Below are positions 40,456-52,069 of a DNA stretch of 64,000 nucleotides, piece by piece. This DNA comes from Variovorax sp. PAMC26660 (GTDB lineage: Bacteria; Pseudomonadota; Gammaproteobacteria; Burkholderiales; Burkholderiaceae_C), in assembly GCF_014302995.1 (NCBI RefSeq), contig NZ_CP060295.1, positions 5,757,501-5,821,500 of the forward strand. The letters run 5' to 3'. The notes below the pieces were generated by a model, which did no database searches, was not told the origin of the DNA, and saw nothing but the letters and a program-made list of their open reading frames with translations. Within the stretch, counting starts at the first letter, position 1; each line of letters begins with the position of its first letter. The position numbers and the translations under genes are program-made.

Positions 40456-40503
40456 AGGCCTCGTGCCGGCGGATGATTTTTTGTCGCTGAGAGTTTTTGC
40501 AAA

Positions 40504-40536
40504 CCTCGTTTCATTTCGCATTGGAATGAAACGAGG
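40504..40536 (-). terminator. Probable native ffs terminator, now separated by the island
   Basis: CCTCGTTTCATT and AATGAAACGAGG form a 12-base perfect stem, and the minus strand continues TTTGCAAAAA. It lies just outside the left att copy. If the island were excised, this hairpin would stand directly after the 3' end of the SRP RNA gene. Confidence 0.6.
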
Positions 40537-40542
40537 CTGCGG

Positions 40543-40563
40543 AAGAGGTTGACGAGCCTTACC
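40543..40563. repeat. Left attachment site (attL) of the island
   Basis: This 21-base copy of the ffs 3' end is detached from the gene and is followed by sequence unrelated to ffs. It is identical to 51788-51808. Confidence 0.85.
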
Positions 40564-40738
40564 GCTGTCATGCGGCAATAAAAGCCCAATTAAATCAACA
40601 ACTTAATGCCGGGCTAGAGACCTCAAGTGATACACGTTGGTGTCACAACGAAAGGTCACTTTAGCTCAATTCTCCCGGATCGTTGATATTCAACATAGCG
40701 AGATACTCTCTAATAGTAGTTTGTAATCTTCTTTGGCT

Positions 40739-41020
40739 ATGGGCACAGTCGGGCTATCCGCCCACTTCGGCGCGGCTTACATCACCGAAAACATGCTGCT
40801 GCAATTTGCCCTCGACCATCGCGAAGTAGTCTTGAACACTGGCGGGTCCTTCTACCTCAAGACCACGCACAACGAAGTGTTCATTGCCCGCAGTCCAGAT
40901 GCCTCTTGGTGGCCCCATCATCAAGCAGAAGGTAAGCAGGCCGGGGTCTTCACGGCGTTCGGCTGGCAACTGACTTACGACAAAGCTCCGGAGCAACTCG
41001 GCCACCGGCCAGGACGTTGA
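40739..41020 (+). CDS. Hypothetical protein at the island's left end (93 aa)
   Basis: ATG 40739 opens a frame with MGTVGLSAHFGAAY and later DHREVVLNTGGSFYLKTTHNEVF. No family is recognised. There is no clear ribosome site, and the opposite strand is also open for a long way, so support is modest. The following small membrane frame begins 15 bases downstream and could be its partner. Confidence 0.35.
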   Translation: MGTVGLSAHFGAAYITENMLLQFALDHREVVLNTGGSFYLKTTHNEVFIARSPDASWWPHHQAEGKQAGVFTAFGWQLTYDKAPEQLGHRPGR

Positions 41021-41035
41021 GAATTGAGCAGGGCA

Positions 41036-41218
41036 ATGCCGATGAAGATCATTTCGACCCTGGCGGTCCTCGTTTCCCTGCTGATGCTCTACATCGGTTA
41101 TGACCTCATCGGCTCCCCCTGGAGCAACGAAAAGGCCATCGGCGGGACCCTCGTGTATATCTGACTGGTGCCTTTCATGGGCGGCCTTGTTGGGCTCGTG
41201 AAAGGGCGCCGTGCATGA
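41036..41218 (+). pseudogene. Small membrane protein interrupted by an in-frame TGA
   Basis: ATG 41036 encodes a membrane helix (MKIISTLAVLVSLLMLYIGYDLIG), then IGGTLVYI, then a TGA at 41162-41164. Beyond the stop the same frame continues LVPFMGGLVGLVKGRRA to a TGA at 41216-41218, a second hydrophobic segment with a basic end. A single TGG-to-TGA change explains the break. The original would be a 60-residue protein with two membrane spans. GAGCAGGGC upstream could serve as ribosome site. Confidence 0.45.
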
Positions 41219-41413
41219 AGCGCTAGCGGAACCATCCACGTAGTCAGTTTTCGCACGACCACAAAGCGCACATCCTTGCCAGTCGCTAGGGGTGTGCTGG
41301 GAGCACCGATGGGGGCTTAGGGGGAGGGCGCCCGAGGGGCGTAGGTCGTCATCGGGGGCAGAGCATCGATGCGACCGCCAAGCTCCAGACTCCCCCATGA
41401 GTTTTAGATTTAT

Positions 41414-41722
41414 TCATTCAATATCAATCACCCTATCAACAGAAAAAATAATCCCTTCAGCAATTAAAATAGGGTATTCGTATAACTTAATCTTCGCGCC
41501 AACCTGAAATTCTTCGACGTTTGATTTTTTGGTAATAGAAGTGATTTCAACACACTCATCAAAGAGTTCATCGATATAAGAGCATCCTTCTGGCAATTTC
41601 ACCTGGCTTGGGTAGAGATCATTCAACACAAGAATACTTCCTCGATGGTCTTGCTGCAACCTTTTCCCATCACCGCACACATGAATTTTGCACGTGAAAG
41701 CTACTCCGCAATACGTTGTCAT
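41414..41722 (-). CDS. Candidate immunity protein for the RHS toxin (102 aa)
   Basis: The frame starts six bases after the stop of the RHS gene, on the same strand, and is much richer in A/T than the RHS core, the typical position and composition of a polymorphic-toxin immunity gene. The sequence reads as a compact alpha/beta domain (ITSITKKSNVEEFQVGAKIKL, ILIAEGIIFSVDRVIDIE). No immunity family is recognised; the role rests on location. Confidence 0.6.
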   Translation of the reverse strand: MTTYCGVAFTCKIHVCGDGKRLQQDHRGSILVLNDLYPSQVKLPEGCSYIDELFDECVEITSITKKSNVEEFQVGAKIKLYEYPILIAEGIIFSVDRVIDIE

Positions 41723-41728
41723 ATCGAC

Positions 41729-44700
41729 TCACTTGTAAGGAATGATTCCACCCGTGGCTTGGGCGTTTCTGTTTACCATGGGAAGACTAGCGCTATCGAA
41801 GCTAATTGCGGGGTGCCCAACATCAGTGAAAGATGTTCCGGAAGCCATGGTGGATTTGCAAATTTTCGACGTAACTATTCTTGTATTGGTTACGCGCGGA
41901 TCCATGATTAAAGATGCGGATTGAAACCAATTCGCGTCGCCAGGAGACAGCCAAAACTGCTTGAACCCGGCCCCTGTTGGATTTCCCTCTATTGAATACA
42001 TTTGAGTGCTCGCTATCGCAGAGAATTCAGCCGGACTAACTACTCGATATATCGATACATACCCCTCATCGCACGTACACGTTGTATCTCCACTTAAAGA
42101 GAGAGCTGCGCCGAGCACGCCGAGCGCTCTGCCTCCCAAGGAGACCGCCCATGGAGGGATGCTAATACCTCCCTCCGGAAATGGGAGTGTGGTTGCCCCG
42201 CCCTGCAGCCCTGCGGGGTCGGTGAATTTCAACGGATTCCCATCTACGTATCCAAATCGATTCCACCCTCCATCGAGCCCGATGGGATCGCCCTGCGTGT
42301 AGCGGCCAGTCGGAGGGCTGTACGTCCTATACCCGTTGTAGAACAGCCCCGACTCCTCATCCGCATACTGCCCCGGATACCTCAGGTTGAACTTCACTTC
42401 CGAGATGCCGGTTGTGCCCGGATGCGGCGCCACTTCCAGATTCGTGAACCGGTTCTTCGCAATCGTCGGCTTGTCTTCCCCGAACGCGCTGTAGCCCCAC
42501 TGCCAGACCGCTTGTCCGTCTGCGTTGGTGAGCTTGCGCGGCGTGTTCAGGTGATCGCTGTGTACCGCGTAGGTGGCGTCGTTGATCACCGCCGCAATCG
42601 GCATCAGCCCGTTCGCAGTGGGCAGGTAGATGTACTGCGCTTGGCCGCCGCTGCTCGTGCCGCCACTGCCCACTTCTGCGATCAACGTGCCCTGCTCGTC
42701 GTAGACATACGCATAGCCCAACTGCTCCGCTTGCGTTGTGCTCGGGCTCCACAGCTTCGTGAAGAACGCAATCAGGCTCTGCATGAACCCTGGATCGGCC
42801 GCATTGCCCTGGCTCGGCGGATACAGCGGCTCGGTCTTGAACACCCGTTGCCCCAACGCGTTGTGGGCGTATCGGGTGGTCGGGCTGACATCGGTGGCGC
42901 CGGTGGTCGATGCACCGAGGCGCCCTTCGGCATCGTAGGTGTAGCTGCGCAAACCATCGCTCACCATGTCGCCGTTGGCGTTGTAGCCATAGGTGACGCT
43001 GGTGTTGCTCGCGCCGTTGATGCTCTGGATGAAGCCTGTCAGTTGGTTGCTCGATGCACCCACCGTGTAGGTTCGGCTGGTGCTCAGGCCGTTGACGGCC
43101 CGGGTGCTGCGGTTCCGGTTGCCGTTGGCGTCGTAGCCGAAGCCTGCGGTGTTGCCCGTGGCGTTGAAGCTGGTGATGCGTCCGACACTGTTGTAGCCCA
43201 CGCTCCATGTCTGCGGCACCAGGGAGATGGTGCTGTGCGTGGGGTCGGTGTCACCGGGCTGGTACAGGTTCTGCGTCAGGCTGGTGATGCGGCCTGCGGC
43301 GTCGTAGACGTAGCTGCTGAACTCGGTGGTGGTCAGGCGGTCTGCGGTGTCATAGACCCGGCTGGCGGCCACTGCGGGGTTCGCGAAGGCCCAGGTCCAT
43401 GCGGTGGGCTGGCCCAGCGGGTTCCAAGCGATGCCGGTGACGAGAGGGTTGCCGTTCCAGTTCAGGCCCACGAGGCGGCCGGTGGCGTCGTAGACGTGAG
43501 TGAGCGTGGCGCCGTTGGGGTAGCCGATGCTCGCCAGCGTGCCGTTGGCGTTATAGCCGTAGCTGACCTGCTGCACGCTGCCGTTGATCAGGGTCTGCTT
43601 CTTGAGGGTGACGCGGCCGAAGGCATCGCGGGTGTACTCGGTGGTGCCGCTGCGGTCCAAGATCTCGGACAGATACCCCTTGCTGTTGGCCGTGAGGTCG
43701 TAGCGCAGGGTGGTGGTCTTGCCGTCGGCGAAGACCAGGCTTGTGGGGCGGCCCAGCGCATCGCGGGTGATCGTCGTGGCCTGGCCCAGGGCGTCGGTGA
43801 TCTGGCTGGGCAGGCCCAGGTTGTCGTACTGGGTGCTGGCGTTGCCCACGTCGGCGCTGGCTTCGGTGGTGGCGTTGCCTTGGGCGTCTCGGGTGTAGGC
43901 GGTGGCTACGCCTTTGAAGTCCTTGGCTTCGGTGACGGCGTCCAGGGCGTTGTATTTCAGCGTGGCCGTTGCGTTGGCGTCATCTCTCACGACCTTGATG
44001 CGGCGCAGGCCATCCAGGCTGTACTGGGTGCTCTGATTCAGACCGTTGGTATTGCGGGTCAGTTCGCCGTTGGCGTCGTAGCCGAACGTGCTGGTCTGGT
44101 TCGGACCTTCGGTCTTGCCGCTCAGGCGATTGAGATAGTTGATAGTGCGGGCGGCCTTCCAGGCAATGCTGCCGGTGCCGTCCTTGATCTGTTCGGTGGT
44201 GCGGTTACCTATGCCATCAAGGGTATAGGTGCCGCTCTCGCCTCGGTTGTTGCTCCAGCCGGTCAGGCGATGGGCTGCGTCGTAGGTGTAGGCCAGGACG
44301 AGGCCGGTGGGCAGCGTGATCGTCTCGACGGTGCCGTAGGCCTTGTAGGTGAGCGTGCTGGTCTGGCCGCCGATGGTCTGGATCAACAACCGGTCACGCG
44401 CGTCGTAGGTGTAGGTCGTGACGAGGCCATTGGGGGCGGTCGTGCTGGCTACGCGGTTGGCACTGTCGTAGGTGTAGCTGGTGACATGGCCGAGAGCGTT
44501 GGTGGACGTCAGGACGTTGCCGAGGAGGTCGTAGGTGTAGCTGGTGACGGCACCATTGGGCTCTGTCGTGGTGTTCACCAAGCCTTGAGGGGTGTAGGTC
44601 CACTGCCAGAGTTGGGTCTTGTTGGTGGCCGTGTCGGTGATCGTCTTCGACAGCGCATTGCCGAGCGTGTCGTAGGTGTAGGCGGTGGTGCGACCAGCTT

Positions 44701-46393
44701 CCGTCACGAGCACAGGCAATGCAAAGGTCGCATGCCATTGAGTGGTTACAGTCTGAGCATCGGGGGTGCCAGAGGCGTAGACCACGGTCGTGGGCAGGCG
44801 GCGGGCGACATCCCATGCCGTGGTGGTGACGATACCGTTGAAGTCGGTCTCAGAAGTCACAAAGCCATTTGCATCCTGGACTCGGGACGCGGCATCAGAT
44901 CCACCATTGCCTGAAAGGAGAGAGCCCGCCGTGACCGCGAGTTGGCCCTTCGTGGTGCGATAGCTGTATGACCGCGACGTACCCAAAGGATCGATGATCG
45001 TCGCAGAGCCTGACGGCTGATAACTGACTTGGTAACCGTCTACCCCCCCGGCCAGTACGGAACTGGTGGCTCGCCCTTTGCTGTCGTAGCCAAAAGTGCC
45101 CCAGCGAGCGCCTGTTTCATCGAGGATGCCGGTTAGAGCCTTGGGGTATGCGGTGCTCTCGTATAGAAACGTCCGGCTCTTACCGTCGGAATAGACAACG
45201 GAAGAGAGACGGCTGGAACTGTCGTGGGTATATCCGATTGTTCGGCCGTCAGGAGTAACAAGGGAGACTAGGTATCCGTCGAGGTACGAAAGGAGGAGCG
45301 TGCGGCCGAATGCATTGGTTATGCTGACAACTTGCCCCGAACCGTTGTATGCGTAGCTACGGGCCCATCCGTTACTTGCCACGGTCGTCTGCAACCGACC
45401 ATTCGCAGTGAAGTTATAGGTGCTGCTATTGTCAGAACGACGCCATATCCACGCGCCATCTCCTGCCTGCGTTAAGGTGTCAGCGCTGTCGTTTGCAGTC
45501 CAACTTTCATTGACAGAGAGCCGTGAGAAAGTGCGCTCAGTGCCGCCAGGCAAAGTGATCGCGACAGCCCTTGGCGCAGCGACGGGCACGGCGTTTAAGC
45601 CAACACTGTAGTTGTGAGACCAGCCTTGACCAAGGCCGGAAGATGCCCTCGTGTCATCGGTGGTCCAGTTGCTGCGATAGGTACGAGTGAAGGACAAGGC
45701 ATCGGAACCGCTGTCGGTCCAATCGACTTCGCCACGGTACTTCTCACCGGTCGCAGGAAGGATAGGATTGCCGGCTCGCAATCCCGACATGCACATGGGA
45801 GGCTGCGATGTCTTAACCGGTCTGCAAGACGTGTGAGTTTCATCCTCCTCGAATCCCGGCCAGTTGCACTGGCAACCAAAGCCGGACGCCAAGCTGCCGT
45901 TCACTGGGCAAAATTCACGCGCCACGCGAAAACCGATATTACCGACCCAAACTCGCCCATCGGCCTTGCGCAGGGCATCGTAAGAACAATTCAAGCCATT
46001 TTCTGACTCTCGATAGTTGCCCAGTATTGTCCAGTTGCCGGGATAGTCGCTATAGGCTCCGCGCATTTGCTTATCGGCCGCCACAGGTCCAAGTGCCGTA
46101 CAGGCTGCTAACTTGGATGGATATTCATCGGTTTGATCGTAAAGCGACCAAGTCTTCTCTGTCGGAATGTATGCCCAGACACTGCTGCTGATGAGCAGGA
46201 GGAGCGCTACGACCACAACACTGCTCGTGGGAAAAAGACGCCGGAATCTCAAGCCCCACAAGGGCTCAAACAGGTGATGCCGACTTTGCACTCGGTTACC
46301 AAGGGTTAGTCGCTCAAAAATATTGCGCGATTTTCCGCTGCGCAAATTCCAAGCGAAGCCCACCAAACACCGCAATGCATTTGCGATTCCCAT
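41729..46393 (-). CDS. RHS-repeat polymorphic toxin with variable C-terminal domain
   Basis: About 1554 residues: a basic N-terminus, one hydrophobic signal/membrane segment (VVVVALLLLISSSVWA), a Cys-containing domain, a DUF6531-like entry (RAGNPILPATGEKYRGEVDW), about 1000 residues of YD/RHS repeats (xxYxYDxxGRL form), and the RHS core end (GLFYNGYRTYSPPTGRYTQGDPIGLDGG, then NPLKFTDPAGL). The last 140 residues after DPAGL are the toxin: YVSIYRVVSPAEFSAIAS, GFKQFWLSPGDANWF, GHPAISFDSASLP. This resembles ADP-ribosyltransferase-fold toxins (tentative). ATG 46393 is preceded by GGGGGAG; starts at 46408 and 46453 are possible. Confidence 0.88.
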   Translation of the reverse strand: MGIANALRCLVGFAWNLRSGKSRNIFERLTLGNRVQSRHHLFEPLWGLRFRRLFPTSSVVVVALLLLISSSVWAYIPTEKTWSLYDQTDEYPSKLAACTALGPVAADKQMRGAYSDYPGNWTILGNYRESENGLNCSYDALRKADGRVWVGNIGFRVAREFCPVNGSLASGFGCQCNWPGFEEDETHTSCRPVKTSQPPMCMSGLRAGNPILPATGEKYRGEVDWTDSGSDALSFTRTYRSNWTTDDTRASSGLGQGWSHNYSVGLNAVPVAAPRAVAITLPGGTERTFSRLSVNESWTANDSADTLTQAGDGAWIWRRSDNSSTYNFTANGRLQTTVASNGWARSYAYNGSGQVVSITNAFGRTLLLSYLDGYLVSLVTPDGRTIGYTHDSSSRLSSVVYSDGKSRTFLYESTAYPKALTGILDETGARWGTFGYDSKGRATSSVLAGGVDGYQVSYQPSGSATIIDPLGTSRSYSYRTTKGQLAVTAGSLLSGNGGSDAASRVQDANGFVTSETDFNGIVTTTAWDVARRLPTTVVYASGTPDAQTVTTQWHATFALPVLVTEAGRTTAYTYDTLGNALSKTITDTATNKTQLWQWTYTPQGLVNTTTEPNGAVTSYTYDLLGNVLTSTNALGHVTSYTYDSANRVASTTAPNGLVTTYTYDARDRLLIQTIGGQTSTLTYKAYGTVETITLPTGLVLAYTYDAAHRLTGWSNNRGESGTYTLDGIGNRTTEQIKDGTGSIAWKAARTINYLNRLSGKTEGPNQTSTFGYDANGELTRNTNGLNQSTQYSLDGLRRIKVVRDDANATATLKYNALDAVTEAKDFKGVATAYTRDAQGNATTEASADVGNASTQYDNLGLPSQITDALGQATTITRDALGRPTSLVFADGKTTTLRYDLTANSKGYLSEILDRSGTTEYTRDAFGRVTLKKQTLINGSVQQVSYGYNANGTLASIGYPNGATLTHVYDATGRLVGLNWNGNPLVTGIAWNPLGQPTAWTWAFANPAVAASRVYDTADRLTTTEFSSYVYDAAGRITSLTQNLYQPGDTDPTHSTISLVPQTWSVGYNSVGRITSFNATGNTAGFGYDANGNRNRSTRAVNGLSTSRTYTVGASSNQLTGFIQSINGASNTSVTYGYNANGDMVSDGLRSYTYDAEGRLGASTTGATDVSPTTRYAHNALGQRVFKTEPLYPPSQGNAADPGFMQSLIAFFTKLWSPSTTQAEQLGYAYVYDEQGTLIAEVGSGGTSSGGQAQYIYLPTANGLMPIAAVINDATYAVHSDHLNTPRKLTNADGQAVWQWGYSAFGEDKPTIAKNRFTNLEVAPHPGTTGISEVKFNLRYPGQYADEESGLFYNGYRTYSPPTGRYTQGDPIGLDGGWNRFGYVDGNPLKFTDPAGLQGGATTLPFPEGGISIPPWAVSLGGRALGVLGAALSLSGDTTCTCDEGYVSIYRVVSPAEFSAIASTQMYSIEGNPTGAGFKQFWLSPGDANWFQSASLIMDPRVTNTRIVTSKICKSTMASGTSFTDVGHPAISFDSASLPMVNRNAQATGGIIPYK

Positions 46394-47119
46394 TGCACTC
46401 TCCCCCATGCCTTCTCGTTTGCGTGTCTGAACGTCTACGGGCCCACTCTTCACGAGCCGTGACGATCAGCATTTCTTGAACAGTCAATCACCCCCTCAGG
46501 TGACGTGCACTGCCACGCAGCGCACTTCGTACAAGTTGTTTCAGGTTAGCCGAAAGGCCGCACCCGAACAACGACAGATCGATGGCACGAGGTAAGTTGC
46601 TCGCAGGCTGAATATGAAAGTACCCAGCGCCCGAAAGTGGCTGTTGTCGGTGGGCGACTGTTGGGGCGCTCTGCTCGCTGCCTTCAGCTGCCCACATGGG
46701 ACTCAGAAGGAGGGCGCGGCGGTGCAGAGGCAGTTTGCTTTTGCCGCAAAAGTCCGAGAGCCCCCTCGAAGAAATCCGGGCGGCGAATCCCCCCCTGGCC
46801 CCCTCGCGTGCGCCCACCCGCGTACCGCGCCCGTCAACACAGGCGGACCGTGCATGCACCCGCTGGCGCATATAGGTGGCCCTGTTGTGTCACCGAATGG
46901 GCGTCATCAAAGCTGTGTTGCAGACCGTTAATCGGGGAGGCACGCCGGGTACTCTGCCTCCAAGCCACACGCAGGGCACCGGCAGTACACCGAGGGGTTG
47001 ATGTGGAAATGTGGAACGTGGCGGTCTCGCTCAGCCGCGGAATCGTGCGCGGTGCAGTCTGGCGCCATGGGCTCGGTGCCACAGTGTGGGCAAGGAGGCA
47101 GTCAAGTCGACTACGAGTT
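46394..47119. other. Gene-free interval upstream of the RHS gene
   Basis: I find no supported gene or RNA here. The frames present are Arg/Pro-rich and lack ribosome sites. The part next to 46400 should hold the RHS promoter. Confidence 0.5.
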
Positions 47120-47968
47120 CTACGGGATAGCTGGCGCGGGCTGAACACCGACACGAAGCGCGAGGTGGGCTAAAAGGCGAAGAAACGCGGAGCCGGAACT
47201 CAAGACATAGACGGTGAACTCCTCCGTTGGCGGCGCGAGGTTGTCTACTTGACCATGCCTGTACTCATGCATTCCCTGGACCCATTGGGCCATGCCCTCG
47301 AACATCGCCCCCCATACTCGTTGTTCAACCCCGTCCCCTGCAGAGACTGCAAGGTACTGGTCTCGAAGTTGAACTCGACACAGGTTCGCGTGGAGATTGC
47401 GTGCTGTTGGATTCAACTGCTTGGCGATGACTTCAAGCGCCTCAAACATCGACCGAATGGCTGGCTTCGTGTCTGGGGGGTGGCGATCAAGGTGTTGAAA
47501 CGCAGACTCATAGCAGCTTCGAGCAACGGCCAGCACGGGGTCGTTGAGGATGGCCAAGGTCGCGGCACGCATCCCCTCGAACACCTCATCGACCGCGTAG
47601 TGAATGATGCCCTGTTCATCGATGCGAAAGCCCATGTGCTCCTCAGCAAGAGCGCGTTCCACAGATGCGCGGTAGATCGCGGCTGGCCGAGGACCACTCT
47701 GCCGAAGCAAGAAATTGAACGTAATTGTTATGGCAGTTAGCACCTCCTCCATCGGGCTCCGCGTGAAGAAATCGTTCCACAGCGTGCCCCATTGGCCGGT
47801 CGGCACGACGATACCTGCCTCGGCACGCAGTCGTCGCTTCACTTCGGCGCTCGACCCGTCGCCGTCTGGGAACGCTGCGCCGATCCGCACACGAAAGCGA
47901 GGGCTGTCGCCTCTAGGGGCAGCACGGTCCATATACCGGTAAATGAAAAGCGGGTGATCTGTAGCCAT
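47120..47968 (-). CDS. Possible abortive-infection-type protein (282 aa)
   Basis: The N-terminal half is a mixed domain (FIYRYMDRAAPRGDSPRFRVRIG). The C-terminal half is helical (AVARSCYESAFQHLDRH, IRSMFEALEVIAKQLNP, GMAQWVQGMHEYRHGQVDNLAPPTEE). A helical repeat ending in an RHG-type segment before a final helix is common in abortive-infection proteins of the Abi/HEPN kind, but the match is by shape only. ATG 47968 (MATDHPLF) is taken; 17 further residues could be added. It diverges from the recombinase gene. Confidence 0.55.
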   Translation of the reverse strand: MATDHPLFIYRYMDRAAPRGDSPRFRVRIGAAFPDGDGSSAEVKRRLRAEAGIVVPTGQWGTLWNDFFTRSPMEEVLTAITITFNFLLRQSGPRPAAIYRASVERALAEEHMGFRIDEQGIIHYAVDEVFEGMRAATLAILNDPVLAVARSCYESAFQHLDRHPPDTKPAIRSMFEALEVIAKQLNPTARNLHANLCRVQLRDQYLAVSAGDGVEQRVWGAMFEGMAQWVQGMHEYRHGQVDNLAPPTEEFTVYVLSSGSAFLRLLAHLALRVGVQPAPAIP

Positions 47969-48111
47969 GCTCACATCGTATCGACTTGGTGGCGTCCGAA
48001 TTCGACCGGATACGGACATCCTCGGCAGCTATGTCCAAAAAATAGCTTGACCCAATTTTGAACACACCCGATGATTCGGACGTCCTTTCCGTACATCAAA
48101 GAGGCCTCCCT

Positions 48112-48696
48112 ATGTCCCGCGTGTTCGCCTACTGCCGCGTCTCCACCACCGACCAGACCACCGACAACCAAGTGCAGGAGATCGCTGCTGCGGGCTTCAG
48201 TGTCACTCCCCAGCGCACCATCGCGGAAACCGTGTCGGGGTCTGTAGCGGCCTCCGAACGGACGGGGTTCGGGATGCTTCTGAACAAGCTCGAAGCGGGG
48301 GACGTGCTAGTGGTCACCAAGCTGGACCGTCTCGGGCGCAACGCTATGGACGTGCGGAGCACCGTGGAGGGCCTTTCCGGCATGGGCGTGCGTGTTCATT
48401 GCTTGGCACTTGGCGGGGTGGACCTGACGAGTCCCGCAGGGAAGATGACGATGGGCGTTATCGCCGCCGTCGCGGAATTCGAGCGGGATCTTCTCATCGA
48501 GCGGACCCAAGCGGGGCTTGCTCGGGCGAAGGCGGAAGGAAAGACGCTCGGCAGGCCGCAGGCCCTGCAAGGGAGCGTGATTGACGATGTGCGCGAGCGG
48601 CTTCAGAGGGGTGAGGCTGTCGCCGCTATCGCCCGTGCCCACAACACCAGCCGTCAGACCATCATGCGCATTCGGGACGCTAACGCACCGGTGTGA
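48112..48696 (+). CDS. Serine recombinase (resolvase/invertase family)
   Basis: The 194-residue protein has a catalytic domain with [17 protein letters not shown] (nucleophile Ser in RVST), [11 protein letters not shown], and [27 protein letters not shown], then an E-helix with [13 protein letters not shown] and a C-terminal helix-turn-helix ([22 protein letters not shown]). This is the layout of Hin/Pin invertases and Tn3 resolvases. AGAGG precedes ATG 48112. No flanking pair of crossover sites is evident, so the target is unknown. Confidence 0.9.
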
Positions 48697-48712
48697 CCCC
48701 GCCTTCCGCCTG

Positions 48713-49108
48713 CTAGGGGCACGGAAATGCCTTCCGCAGCGCAGCCCTGATTGGTACCTCTGCGGGGAGCGAGTGAGTCTGAGGGTTCTCCTTCAGGTAC
48801 TTCACGACGATCTTCACCAAGAGCAGCGGGTCGCCTGAGTCTTCCTTCGGACACAAGCCGTTGTCCGTCCTTCGAGCCTCAGCGGCTTCCGCCAAAAGGG
48901 CGCCCGCTGAGGCATCGAGGACGCCGATGCAGTAGCCTGACTGGAACGCCTCCTTTTGCTGCGTCTCCGGTGCATGCTTACGCAACGCTGCCTCGCACAC
49001 CTTGAGGAACGGCCCGCCATCGACACCCGATGCGTGGGCTGCGCCACCCCCAAGGCCGCATGCAGAGGCCATCGAAAGCAAACCCAAAAGACGTGTGATG
49101 TTGTTCAT
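48713..49108 (-). CDS. Rap1a/Tai-family immunity protein
   Basis: The 131-residue precursor has a signal peptide (MNNITRLLGLLSMASACGLGGGAAHA) and a small helical domain with paired cysteines: FLKVCEAAL, QSGYCIGVLDASAGALL, GLCPKE, and the C-terminal VVKYLKENPQTH with IRAALRKAFPCP. That pattern is the Rap1a/Tai family, periplasmic proteins that neutralise peptidoglycan amidase effectors of type VI secretion. No amidase toxin is present in the island, so it is an orphan. It converges on the serine recombinase gene. Confidence 0.8.
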   Translation of the reverse strand: MNNITRLLGLLSMASACGLGGGAAHASGVDGGPFLKVCEAALRKHAPETQQKEAFQSGYCIGVLDASAGALLAEAAEARRTDNGLCPKEDSGDPLLLVKIVVKYLKENPQTHSLPAEVPIRAALRKAFPCP

Positions 49109-49455
49109 CGCAAGAGTGTAAGAACCAACCGTCCCGGAACGTGCTGCCAGACATCCGTGAATGCTGTTGGAGATTTAGTGGGGCAGCCTATCCGTACAAA
49201 GATATGACCGAACGCAAGCTCCCACGGTCTATGAATACCTCAAGGCTCCCGTTTGAGCTACTCAGAACGAGCCCGGGCATGGATTTCGATTTACCCCTTG
49301 ACTAAGACAACCCGGGCCGATCCACAAAACCGGCGCATTAGGTAGAGCCCACTTGGCCCACCTCAAGGTGCCCTTCCTGGCGCACCTCTCCGCCCCCTCT
49401 CGGTTCGCCGTCAGGGGGCTTTCTTTCGTCTTCACATTCACATCCTGAGCTTGCA
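49109..49455. other. Gene-free interval with a terminator-like hairpin
   Basis: No supported protein gene. There is a possible -35 box TTGACT near 49298 and a G/C hairpin with T-run at 49392-49426, so a short untranslated transcript of about 100 bases is conceivable but unproven. Confidence 0.4.
49392..49426 (+). terminator. Terminator-like hairpin before the small phage-like operon
   Basis: GCCCCCT (49392-49398) pairs with AGGGGGC (49413-49419), followed by TTTCTTTC. It lies 30 bases upstream of the start codon at 49456, thus in the leader of that operon. Confidence 0.5.
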
Positions 49456-49752
49456 ATGGCACAACACCTGACCCCCCGCGTTATTCGCGCGTATTCCCTT
49501 CCCGTCGAACAGTTCGACCATCTCAAAAACTATCAACGCAGTCTTCAGTTCGCCGCCGACGCTGAAGCCGGTACGCCTGCCTGCGAAGGTGACGCCCACT
49601 GGATCACGAACAGTCAGACGCTCGCGCACATCCTTCACCACCACGGCCTGCTTGCCACCGTCGCCGTTCGCTCGGACATGCACATCGGCCCGTTCGTGTC
49701 GGCTCTGTACATGGGCGACTTGGTAGCCGGTCAGCCAGAGGTGCAATCGTGA
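49456..49752 (+). CDS. Hypothetical island protein (98 aa)
   Basis: The protein begins MAQHLTPRVIRAYSLPVEQFDHLK and contains HWITNSQTLAHILHHHG. The form is of a small DNA-binding or regulatory phage protein, but no family is recognised. It overlaps the next gene by GTGA and opens a three-gene plus-strand group that ends at the integrase. Confidence 0.55.
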   Translation: MAQHLTPRVIRAYSLPVEQFDHLKNYQRSLQFAADAEAGTPACEGDAHWITNSQTLAHILHHHGLLATVAVRSDMHIGPFVSALYMGDLVAGQPEVQS

Positions 49753-50024
49753 GCGCCGCGAACGTCCCGGCCTTGTGCGTTTTCAGTCCCCCAAGCGGGC
49801 AGCCCATTCGCGGCTTCAGCGATGCTGCCGGGGCCTTTTGGTTCGTCACGCTCGACGTGCTCCCGGCGATGGGTCTGCGGGGCGGGCCGAAGATCATCCC
49901 GCGCATCGACGCGGCTGACAAGTCAATCATAGGCAAGGGCAATGCCTACGGCATGCACCCCGACACCATCCGCCGCAGCCGCACGCATGAAGAACGTCGT
50001 CTATCTTTTTCGCGCGGAGCGTAA
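49749..50024 (+). CDS. Bro-N/antirepressor-like small protein (91 aa)
   Basis: GTG 49749 overlaps the previous stop. The segment FSDAAGAFWFVTLDVLPAMGLRG resembles the start of Bro-N antirepressor domains (pattern: WFV..DV...LG), followed by IPRIDAADKSIIGKG. The protein stops after 91 residues, so at most a Bro-N domain is present and the C-terminus overlaps the next gene. Reading as Bro-N is tentative. Confidence 0.5.
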   Translation: MSAANVPALCVFSPPSGQPIRGFSDAAGAFWFVTLDVLPAMGLRGGPKIIPRIDAADKSIIGKGNAYGMHPDTIRRSRTHEERRLSFSRGA

Positions 50025-50349
50025 AGTGCCGCGCCTTGTCGGTGAGAGCGACATCCTGTACATCGGTCAAACCAAGACCACTTTCGAGCGTCGATACAAG
50101 CAATGGGCCGCGCTCATATCTACGCTCAAGCGGAACGAGCATGCGCTCAAGGCATACGGGCCGATCACGCTGGCGGCTTGCGACTATCGGGTATTCGGGC
50201 AAAGCCTGCTAGTGGCTGAAAATCAGATGCTGTGGTGGTACTACGCCAACCATTTTGAGTACCCGCCCTTCAACTACACGCGAGCGAAAAACCCGAGTAA
50301 GGCCAAGCCGCAGCCGATGCCGAAGGTAAGCCCTCAGGAAGCCCCGTAA
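49987..50349 (+). CDS. GIY-YIG-like small protein (120 aa)
   Basis: ATG 49987 begins MKNVVYLFRAERKVPRL, followed by SDILYIGQTKTTFERRYKQW. The pair VYL...LYIGQT with a downstream Arg-rich helix is the core of the GIY-YIG nuclease fold. A later Glu in AENQMLWWYYANHFEYPPFN could be the metal ligand. It is short, with no DNA-binding extension. It overlaps the preceding gene by 38 bases and the integrase 3' end by 16. Confidence 0.6.
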   Translation: MKNVVYLFRAERKVPRLVGESDILYIGQTKTTFERRYKQWAALISTLKRNEHALKAYGPITLAACDYRVFGQSLLVAENQMLWWYYANHFEYPPFNYTRAKNPSKAKPQPMPKVSPQEAP

Positions 50350-51677
50350 GGCCCCACAGCGGGCAACGTGAGGGCAGGGTACCGGATCGCCTCCACGGCC
50401 TCCTGAACCTCGCTCAGCGTGTGATGGTCATAGACCACCGTGCCGACGCTGCCCACGGTCTTGTGTCCGGTTACTTTATCCATCGTGCCATCGCTGACCC
50501 CCGCACGCCGCATCAACGGGCGCACCGTGTGGCGCAGATAGTGGAACGTGGGGGTGAGCCCCATCGCCTTGCAGTGAGCACCGAACCACCTCCCGAAGTA
50601 GTCGCTCGGCTTGCCCTCACGCAGCGGCAGGGACGGCCACAGCGAATCGCTACGAGACGCCTTGATGGTCTCGACGTACTTGAGGAATCCAAGCCGGATG
50701 AGTTCGCTGTGAATCGGAACGCTGCGGTGTCCTGCGTCGCTCTTGATGCTCTGGCCTTCGCCTTCGTTCGTCAGCACCAGAACGTGTACGCCTTCCACCT
50801 TCTGAACGTCAACCGTGCGTAGCTGGCACAGTTCCCCCAGCCGGGTCCCCGTGAACAATCCCAGAAGGGGAATCCAGTAGGCCGCCTCGCGACCACCGTA
50901 GCGGGCATCAGGAAGTGCATACGCCGTGTGCAGCGGGGAGGAGAACAGCGCCACAAGTTCATCGTTCGTCCACGGCCTACGCTTGTTCGTCGTCGTGGTC
51001 TTGATGTCCAAGCTGCGCCAGGGCTGCACGGGAATCCACTGCAAGGTTTCCGCCGCAAACTTCAGAAGCGACTTGATGTTTGTGAGGCGAGCCCCTTCAA
51101 CGTTCGGATCGAAGGCTACCCCAAGCTTCAGCGCCTCGAAGCGCACCAAGGGCAGCACAGCCGCTCTACGGCGTTTCGCCAGATCGGCACCCGCGCGAGC
51201 ATCGAGGAGGGCGTTCAAGCCTGACAGGGTTGCGGCGTCGTCGTCTGACAGCCCGGCGCCGAATGACGTGTCCCGCTCGGGCGGGAGGTACGGGGTAAGC
51301 GGTCCAATGCGGAGCGCTCGCGTGTTGTGCTCAACGGCTTTCGCTATGTCCGTGAGAGTAGCGATTCGTGCAGGGTCATCGCGTAGCAAATCGTCCATTC
51401 TGAGGACGCGGGCGCGAATCCTCAGGGCCAACTCTTGCGCCAACTCAGGGGTTATCAGCGCCAGAGGTTTGGGCTTCAGCTCACGCTTTTTTACGTCGAA
51501 ATCGGCGAGCCATTCGGCCCGCTTCAGGGTCGCCAAAAGCGTTGCCTCGCGGCGGTCACTGGTGCCCAGAGCGATGTTCACCCGGGTCTTGCGATAGACC
51601 GCACGGAGTTCCTCCGGGATGATGATTCGGACGCAGTAGCGCGTTCCTCTGAGGTTCAATCCCTCGACCTTTGCCAT
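50334..51677 (-). CDS. int: Tyrosine integrase of the SRP-RNA island
   Basis: The 447-residue phage-type integrase has an N-terminal arm-binding region (MAKVEGLNLRGTRYCVRI), a helical core-binding domain, and a catalytic domain with Arg in GLFTGTRLGELCQL, HxxR in HYLRHTVRP, His in TGHKTVGSVG and the nucleophile Tyr in VVYDHHTL. It should catalyse integration at the ffs 3' end. It lies 110 bases inside attR and reads away from ffs on the same strand, so read-through from ffs may express it. ATG 51677 is chosen; 51713 is the longest possibility. Confidence 0.92.
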   Translation of the reverse strand: MAKVEGLNLRGTRYCVRIIIPEELRAVYRKTRVNIALGTSDRREATLLATLKRAEWLADFDVKKRELKPKPLALITPELAQELALRIRARVLRMDDLLRDDPARIATLTDIAKAVEHNTRALRIGPLTPYLPPERDTSFGAGLSDDDAATLSGLNALLDARAGADLAKRRRAAVLPLVRFEALKLGVAFDPNVEGARLTNIKSLLKFAAETLQWIPVQPWRSLDIKTTTTNKRRPWTNDELVALFSSPLHTAYALPDARYGGREAAYWIPLLGLFTGTRLGELCQLRTVDVQKVEGVHVLVLTNEGEGQSIKSDAGHRSVPIHSELIRLGFLKYVETIKASRSDSLWPSLPLREGKPSDYFGRWFGAHCKAMGLTPTFHYLRHTVRPLMRRAGVSDGTMDKVTGHKTVGSVGTVVYDHHTLSEVQEAVEAIRYPALTLPAVGPYGAS

Positions 51678-51787
51678 GTCCTGTCCCTTCGTCATGTTGT
51701 ACGGAGGTGACACAGCAAAGTGATACAGAGGGGGGCTCGTGAGCCCATGTCAGCGCTTAAGTTCTTGATAAATAAGCGCTTTACAGA

Positions 51788-51808
51788 AAGAGGTTGACGA
51801 GCCTTACC
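51788..51808. repeat. Right attachment site (attR), overlapping the ffs 3' end
   Basis: These 21 bases are identical to 40543-40563. The last 17 nucleotides of the SRP RNA fall within them, so integration restores the gene. Confidence 0.85.
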
Positions 51809-51894
51809 CCTGGCACTGACTACGCAGTTAGGGCTGCTTGGTTCCCCACCTGACCCGGTTGGCCACTTCACCATGCAGGGAGGCCCGTCAGCCC
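51792..51894 (-). ncRNA. ffs: 4.5S RNA, signal recognition particle RNA
   Basis: The minus strand gives a 103-base rod. The ends pair (GACGGGCCT near the 5' end with AGGCTCGTC near the 3' end), then CCCTG pairs with CAGGG. The apex contains GGGTCAGG, a GG-GGAA-CC tetraloop and AAGCAGC, the conserved Ffh-binding symmetric loop of SRP RNA. It guides membrane-protein targeting with Ffh. It stands divergent to dnaX. Its 3' end is the island's integration site. Confidence 0.9.
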
Positions 51895-52069
51895 GCATTC
51901 TAACCCGCAGGTCGCGCGCACTTTCGTGTCGCTTCGCCAATCCCTTTCAGAGGGGACGGCATCGGTGGTCCGGACAAAGCCGGCTTCCGGTGTCTCACGA
52001 AGAAGACAGCCTTCTTTTGATTGCAGGGTCGGGCCGGAGAGGGCCGTTGCGCCTTTTAGAATGCCCGCA

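Follow-up and report, generated by a model that had tools for sequence, protein, structure and literature searches.

What occupies the 3′ end of ffs, the gene for the 4.5S or small signal recognition particle (SRP) RNA, in Variovorax sp. PAMC26660, and how did it come to lie there? The window analysed here, a 64,000-nucleotide stretch of contig NZ_CP060295.1 (positions 5,757,501 to 5,821,500), carries ffs beside a tyrosine integrase gene and a short direct repeat, which an earlier note, made from the sequence alone, had read as a genomic island inserted into the end of this RNA gene. The feature is confirmed as a real island bounded by repeats at the ffs 3′ end, and the earlier interpretation is supported in substance. 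Our whole explanation, an integrative island in the ffs 3′ end with a lambda-like phage-type attachment site (attP) and an integrase from an ffs-using clade that later decayed, is given a probability of about 0.93. The features that define the insertion are as follows.

51788..51808, no strand: ffs-side attachment (att) repeat, 21 bp, the 3′ end of ffs (direct reading and repeat comparison)
40543..40563, no strand: distal att repeat, 21 bp, the displaced 3′ end of ffs (direct reading and repeat comparison)
51793..51889, minus strand: ffs, the 4.5S / small SRP RNA gene and target, complete after insertion (Rfam RF00169)
51897..51902, minus strand: -10-like box TAGAAT upstream of ffs, at the ffs-side copy only (assigned by position)
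40504..40536, minus strand: native hairpin, directly 3′ of ffs in empty-site relatives, probable ffs terminator (folding and alignment)
50334..51677, minus strand: tyrosine integrase (DUF6538 plus Phage_integrase), 447 aa (Pfam)

Both copies of the repeat are present at 40543-40563 and 51788-51808 and are identical over 21 bp, as the earlier note had claimed; the match extends imperfectly to 28 nt at 93%, and the unit bracketed by the repeats measures 11,245 bp. The target is a full-length match to Rfam RF00169 (63.2 bits against a gathering score of 40, E 1.3e-11, model positions 1-97 of 97, 51793-51889 on the minus strand), which bears out its reading as a convincing ffs, and it is the one ffs match found in this genome. 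The right repeat does overlap the end of the gene, though by 16 nt on the Rfam boundaries and not the 17 nt originally given. The integrase starts with the Met at 51677, 111 bp inside the right repeat and on the same strand as ffs, in agreement with the distance of about 110 bases noted before. In most relatives compared, TACAAT or TAGAAT occupies the same position as the -10-like box of the window; a sigma-70 promoter scan of the region around ffs found no site. The GC content of the island, per 1000-bp window, is 0.50-0.66 (mostly 0.55-0.62, with the minimum near the left end), against 0.66-0.70 in the left flank and 0.63-0.68 in the right. The stretch 40480-40545, which includes the native hairpin, has a folding energy of -21.6 kcal/mol (z -4.4). 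Folding ffs together with 112 nt of downstream sequence did not recover the SRP fold.

An empty site is the arrangement that such an insertion predicts, and relatives were searched for it. An ffs gene was found in 59 of 61 genomes, including 35 of the 36 same-genus genomes besides that of the window, and the flanks of these were read. In four of them (G009/L043, G010/L044, G016/L049 and G033/L066) alignment places the window-type hairpin (window 40504-40536) directly behind ffs, and the distance from ffs to the neighbouring HI0933-like oxidoreductase is 87-92 bp, versus 11,341 bp in the window. The uninterrupted ffs plus hairpin that the earlier note had suggested looking for is thus found in four same-genus genomes, and the pre-insertion site it had written, 40542 joined to 51788, corresponds to an arrangement that therefore exists in relatives. 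The window ffs is 97/97 identical to those of the empty-site relatives L043, L049 and L066; the target gene is intact, and the insertion apparently restored the 3′ end of the RNA, as had been proposed. An attempt to map the crossover placed no crossover position.

Across the genus the spacing from ffs to the end of the oxidoreductase match is 40-99 bp in 8 of 35 loci, 326-891 bp in 13 and 1.5-15.9 kb in 12; in the remaining 2 the match was out of range. Behind ffs at L041, L045, L050, L051, L063-L065, L067 and others there is a hairpin-like motif (AACTTACGCGC) at 20-50 nt, as at element ends, and no integrase was detected at these loci; behind such an integrase-less ffs, the motif may be the footprint of an element or a host terminator. 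At one of these loci, L063 (G030), a decayed second ffs 3′ end lies at +1767 and is followed by sequence resembling that found directly behind ffs in L053, which suggests stacked insertions.

Do other ffs-adjacent integrases lie within elements of the same construction? Sixteen such loci were read for up to 20 kb, and a second ffs 3′ end was found 6.7-17.1 kb downstream in 11 of them (L166, L168, L169, L170, L173-L177, L179 and L181). The downstream copies carry 0-4 substitutions in 20, with three or fewer in 10 of the 11; in a chance control of 4500 random 20-mers from 15 comparable loci, with copies sought 3-18 kb downstream, 15 had a copy at three or fewer substitutions and 4 at one or none. 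No second end was found in the sequence read, up to 20 kb, at L167 and L171, and L172, L178 and L180 run into contig ends. In L175/G516 the element is 15.4 kb long and its distal flank is the same native hairpin as in the window. V. boronicumulans PgBe293 (L034) has the same ffs-side end, a second att core 6.65 kb away and then the same kind of hairpin, and its element is the same as that of G493/L181. The shared repeat tract is about 16-24 nt in most elements, about 95 nt in L170 and about 120 nt in L166.

Partial copies of ffs do exist elsewhere, the decayed one in L063 among them, so the repeats of the window could in principle have arisen without site-specific recombination, by partial duplication of the gene. 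We regard this as scarcely credible: the repeats bound the DNA missing from empty-site relatives, and the same arrangement recurs in the 11 loci above. Larger copies were also observed. In L170 (G144) the direct repeat of about 95 nt takes in most of ffs and some bases behind it. In L166 (G253) two complete and identical ffs genes (97/97) flank the element, the first ending at 1175 and the second ending 14,764 bp downstream, with a -10-like box in front of one copy only and absent at the second. G920 has two ffs matches on two contigs (C26:2919-3016 and C80:513-610).

The integrase that would have carried out the insertion matches PF00589 (37.4 bits, cut-off 27.1) and, at its N terminus, PF20172 (DUF6538; 43.3 bits, cut-off 27), and lies just inside one end of the island. 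A family search gave matches in 65 of 399 genomes and returned 30 loci; among the 29 besides the window's own, the RNA gene in front of the integrase is ffs in 8, a tRNA gene in 16 and a tmRNA gene in 2, with none found in 3. A genus search matched 19 of 100 genomes, and 20 of its loci, scanned for RNA genes, divide into 9 behind ffs (L116 being a fragment), 10 behind tRNA genes and 1 with none. An integrase at least 59% identical over more than half of the query occurs in 9 of the 100 genus genomes, the window's included, and all nine lie behind ffs; a tenth genome, G008, has an N-terminal integrase fragment behind ffs. Order and phylum searches added mostly tRNA neighbours, together with one gammaproteobacterial ffs case, L136/G964, whose integrase has a stop in frame.

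A tree of 81 rows was built from 87 loci after copies (L100, L102, L106) and rows shorter than 280 aa (L092, L116, L145) were dropped; it carries 48 tRNA, 19 ffs and 4 tmRNA labels and 10 rows with none. In this quick tree, 17 of the 19 ffs rows form one group with the integrase of the window (Shimodaira-Hasegawa-like approximate likelihood-ratio test, SH-aLRT, 99), and the other two, L136 and the same-genus L112 (G028), sit elsewhere. Forcing all 19 ffs rows into a single clade was rejected, at a cost of 314 log units (approximately unbiased test, p-AU 2.15e-9). The simplest reading is that ffs use was gained three times, with the proviso that change counts are blind to gain versus loss and that long branches are present. 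L112, which is also L061, is a 15.7 kb element at ffs whose integrase, from a different branch, is about 26% identical to the full-length relative P0006, and it is apparently an independent gain of ffs as a target. The earlier note had proposed a class of integrases that uses ffs. That the closest homologues would stand beside ffs proves right, and the 17-row clade is such a class, with the qualifications that two ffs users lie elsewhere and that the ffs users are a branch within a larger DUF6538 group whose other sampled members stand mostly behind tRNA or tmRNA genes.

The same tree bears on the possibility that ffs simply attracts unrelated insertions, its shared use by these integrases being a coincidence. 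In the 33 same-genus loci (of 35) that show both ffs and the oxidoreductase, as little as 40 bp or as much as 15.9 kb separates the two, and many filled gaps have no detected integrase, as a hotspot would allow; the ffs label, however, requires 3 changes on the tree against a shuffled mean of 17.3, with none of 500 shuffles as low (near-copies help this clustering), which makes coincidence highly improbable. Further afield, a sample of 40 ffs loci from Pseudomonadota (alternate rows from the first 81 of a list of ffs matches, without the window's own; 38 read for about 3.6 kb and two for 1.4 kb) contained no family-like tyrosine recombinase, so ffs occupation is not common in that sample; G964, which has an integrase, fell outside it, and five known ffs-integrase loci used as a control were all recovered. 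Phage and plasmid collections held no record covering at least 80% of P0006 (10 phage and 54 plasmid records, all below 60% identity), viral contigs searched with P0006 gave 9 loci at 26-34% identity, and a genome-contig search with the window's integrase gave 3 loci.

How might such an integrase recognise the ends of its element? Both ends of the island contain an exact match to what we take to be the consensus of integration host factor (IHF), on either side of the att core, and repeats resembling arm-type sites.

51758..51770, minus strand: IHF-consensus match (WATCAANNNNTTR), 17 bp inside the ffs-side repeat (assumed consensus)
40593..40605, plus strand: IHF-consensus match, 29 bp inside the distal repeat (assumed consensus)
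51705..51728, minus strand: paired arm-type repeats CTGTATCACTT / CTGTGTCACCT, 13-bp period, about 60 nt behind ffs (sequence comparison)
40625..40648, minus strand: distal arm-type repeats, GTGTATCACTT and a TGTGACACC-like copy (sequence comparison)

For 14 elements with both ends (28 end windows of 70 nt within 303,968 bp in total), the exact consensus occurs in 12 of the 28 end windows and 9 of the 14 elements, where 0.004 would be expected per 70-bp window, and only 17 matches occur in the whole 303,968 bp. The seven distal matches all stand at one common offset, six of them being from two lineages. Arm pairs, defined as 10-mers at least 8/10 alike at a spacing of 12-14 behind the RNA gene, were counted in 68 elements with a defined RNA end, some near-copies included (71 rows are RNA-labelled, and no end was found for L074, L112 and L153). 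They are present in 55 of the 68, at 13 bp in 49 and 12 bp in 6, compared with 163 of 1360 random 90-nt windows from the same loci. Distal motifs match their own end better than a swapped end in 10 lineage representatives (p 0.0024 for 11-mers, 0.005 for 13-mers and 0.075 for 9-mers); in this covariation analysis the wrong orientation had been compared first, giving a mean of 8.79 for own pairs and 8.18 for cross pairs (p 0.007).

The arm motif covaries with one domain of the integrase in particular. Over 55 elements (1431 pairs), its partial correlation with DUF6538 identity, given catalytic identity, is 0.289 (p 0.0005), and with catalytic identity, given DUF6538 identity, 0.080 (p 0.07); with near-copy pairs removed the values are 0.270 and 0.073, respectively. 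The window's integrase itself shares 58% identity with that of L032 in the N domain and 87% in the catalytic part; for L105 the corresponding figures are 72% and 77%, and the window's arms are of L105's type, not L032's. As the arm motif tracks DUF6538 and not the catalytic domain, we propose that the N-terminal DUF6538 domain binds the arm sites, a role that these comparisons suggest. Its predicted fold is strand-strand-helix-strand-long helix; the model has only weak, tied matches to solved folds, among them the arm-binding domain of a P4-like integrase (PDB 3rmp), which ties with unrelated folds and shows no sequence link to it, and a Foldseek search with the domain alone gave no match at E ≤0.001. 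From the element ends we predict that recombination proceeds as in lambda, assisted by IHF, and that DUF6538 is the arm-binding domain.

The integrase of the window is not full length: residues 199-314 of its homologue P0002 (116 aa) are absent from it, in frame. Among the best 120 of 469 homologues, the window's own included, 118 of the other 119 exceed 500 aa, against 447 aa here. In the predicted structure of P0002 (13 sequences; mean predicted local distance difference test score, pLDDT, 71.7; predicted template modelling score, pTM, 0.42) the lost stretch spans the helices at 198-305 and the start of the next helix, before the catalytic domain, and on this model we read it as most of the core-binding domain. 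Foldseek, run with the model of a full-length relative, ranks the complex of lambda integrase with its core site first (1z19, E 6.3e-5). L034's integrase is cut differently, its match ending at query residue 334 of 459.

Could the island still move, with a shortened integrase that functions despite the loss of most of its core-binding domain or that receives help in trans? The catalytic motifs (R in TGTR, HxxR, H and Y) are kept, the frame is open and the att repeats are perfect. Continued mobility is nevertheless unlikely, given the near-uniform greater length of the homologues, the failure to find a second integrase of this type in the genome and the role of the core-binding domain, which in lambda Int grips the core. 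The integrase probably no longer works, to judge from its sequence, and without most of that domain the island is probably stranded, fixed in place unless an intact relative helps in trans. We infer that the decay came after insertion, and that the ffs-side end was kept because ffs now depends on it. The missing 116 residues bear on present mobility and not on the origin of the island.

In the mechanism that we envisage, the tyrosine integrase of the island's ancestor would have recombined this ancestor into the host ffs at its 3′ end, with the last ~16 nt of the gene and a few further bases as the att core. The integrase is a member of an ffs-specialised clade; its relatives outside that clade act mostly at tRNA and tmRNA ends. 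The island would supply its own copy of the 3′ end, so that ffs is complete behind its own promoter on the right, while the displaced ffs fragment and the native terminator remain on the left. The attP would resemble that of lambda: IHF would bend the DNA on either side of the core, and the N-terminal DUF6538 domain would bind the paired arm sites; later loss of most of the core-binding domain would have fixed the island unless an intact relative acts in trans.

The DNA carried by the island includes the following open reading frames (ORFs).

49942..50349, plus strand: 135-aa ORF behind int, opposite the integrase end (76% identical homologue at the same place in L175)
48713..49108, minus strand: Rap1a-family immunity-like protein (PF18602, 52.3 bits)
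48058..48696, plus strand: small serine resolvase/invertase (PF00239, 125.7 bits)
47120..48019, minus strand: 299-aa cargo protein (83% identical homologue in island L176)
41729..46453, minus strand: RHS-repeat protein, 1574 aa, cargo (PF05593, TIGR03696)
41414..41722, minus strand: 102-aa ORF directly behind the RHS gene (ORF list)

A Pfam scan covered eight island ORFs. The 135-aa ORF, which we take to hold a GIY-YIG-like motif, has no Pfam match; the 299-aa protein has a weak PADLOC match to PDC-S32 (E 6.6e-5), and the 102-aa ORF no family match. From its sequence the RHS-repeat protein is a probable interbacterial polymorphic toxin, and the 102-aa ORF is, by position, probably its immunity gene. 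The comparison took in 19 ffs islands, that of the window among them, and in five of the 19 the far end is undefined; tblastn found neither of the two proteins in the other 18. A relative of the resolvase is present in 12 of these 19. Six of them, one a remnant, carry relatives of a conserved protein of 827 aa whose PHROG match is 23202 'internal virion protein' (E 4e-149), namely L173, L174, L176, L178, L167 and, as the remnant, L181; Pfam gave no match for this protein at E 0.001, and no solved structure is a convincing relative; it may point to a phage-satellite lifestyle. No virion or packaging genes occur among the eight scanned ORFs of the window's island. Across 11 islands, 77 cargo ORFs chosen out of 129 were surveyed; the resolvase leads the Pfam families, with 7, and other cargo includes type I restriction-modification, Mrr, Abi_C and Fic proteins.

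The scanned cargo also bears on a quite different origin, in which a type I-F3 CRISPR-associated Tn7-like transposon (CAST) was guided to ffs and placed the island. Elements of that kind are not known to carry an integrase or to leave a rebuilt 3′ end. They share ffs as a chromosomal attachment site, one of the four that they mostly use (PMC11406308), but their transposition is guide-RNA-directed. No transposase, tns or CRISPR/cas protein is encoded by the eight ORFs, both ends consist of a 21-bp repeat of the ffs 3′ end, and the island has an integrase from the ffs-associated clade, leaving this origin with next to no chance.

The closest parallels for an island in the ffs 3′ end are the tRNA- and tmRNA-targeted islands of the Islander/TIGER class, in which a tyrosine integrase likewise lies near one end (PMC4383910, PMC12424338), the target RNA gene is rebuilt and its displaced fragment stands at the other end. 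The likeness extends to the integrases, whose relatives outside the ffs clade are mostly behind tRNA and tmRNA genes; the difference is the target, here the SRP RNA gene. Islander is limited to tRNA and tmRNA genes (PMC4383910), and a word search of both texts found no ffs, SRP or 4.5S. Lambda integrase and its attP (PDB 1z19, 1z1b and 5j0n) offer a further parallel: the modelled relative has the same catalytic and core-binding fold, and the core is flanked on each side by IHF-like and arm-type sites, here predicted from sequence. The differences are the RNA-gene-end target, the DUF6538 N-terminal domain and the pairing of arm sites at 13 bp. No report of ffs as an integrase site was found in the accessible portions of the literature searched, including PMC11406308, PMC12424338, PMC2864759, PMC12189769, PMC539331, PMC12884075 and PMC4383910; supplements of surveys lay outside this search, and an earlier listing is possible. 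DUF6538 is not mentioned in the literature searched. New here are an integrase without 116 internal residues and element ends with IHF-like sites and paired 10-nt repeats.

Taken jointly, the observations allow a broader but tentative reading, to which we give somewhat less than even odds. In this reading a broad family of integrases is specialised on structured-RNA genes, whose 3′ ends it uses, and recognises its paired arm sites through DUF6538; exchanging this domain would re-code attP. Within the family the target would have changed at least three times from tRNA and tmRNA genes to that of the SRP RNA, and a complete spare ffs is carried by some elements, such as L166. The int gene lies 80-116 nt behind ffs in the same direction with no recognised terminator between, so read-through from the ffs promoter may drive int expression only after integration.

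SRP RNA is essential, and ffs is single-copy in nearly all genomes searched, so an element that owns the ffs 3′ end should be hard to lose without harm. The displaced ffs ends mark exact island boundaries that lie outside the view of an island finder limited to tRNA and tmRNA genes. The family provides clearly bounded natural pairs of integrase and att site at a conserved housekeeping RNA gene, and offers a testable function for DUF6538, a domain of unknown function.

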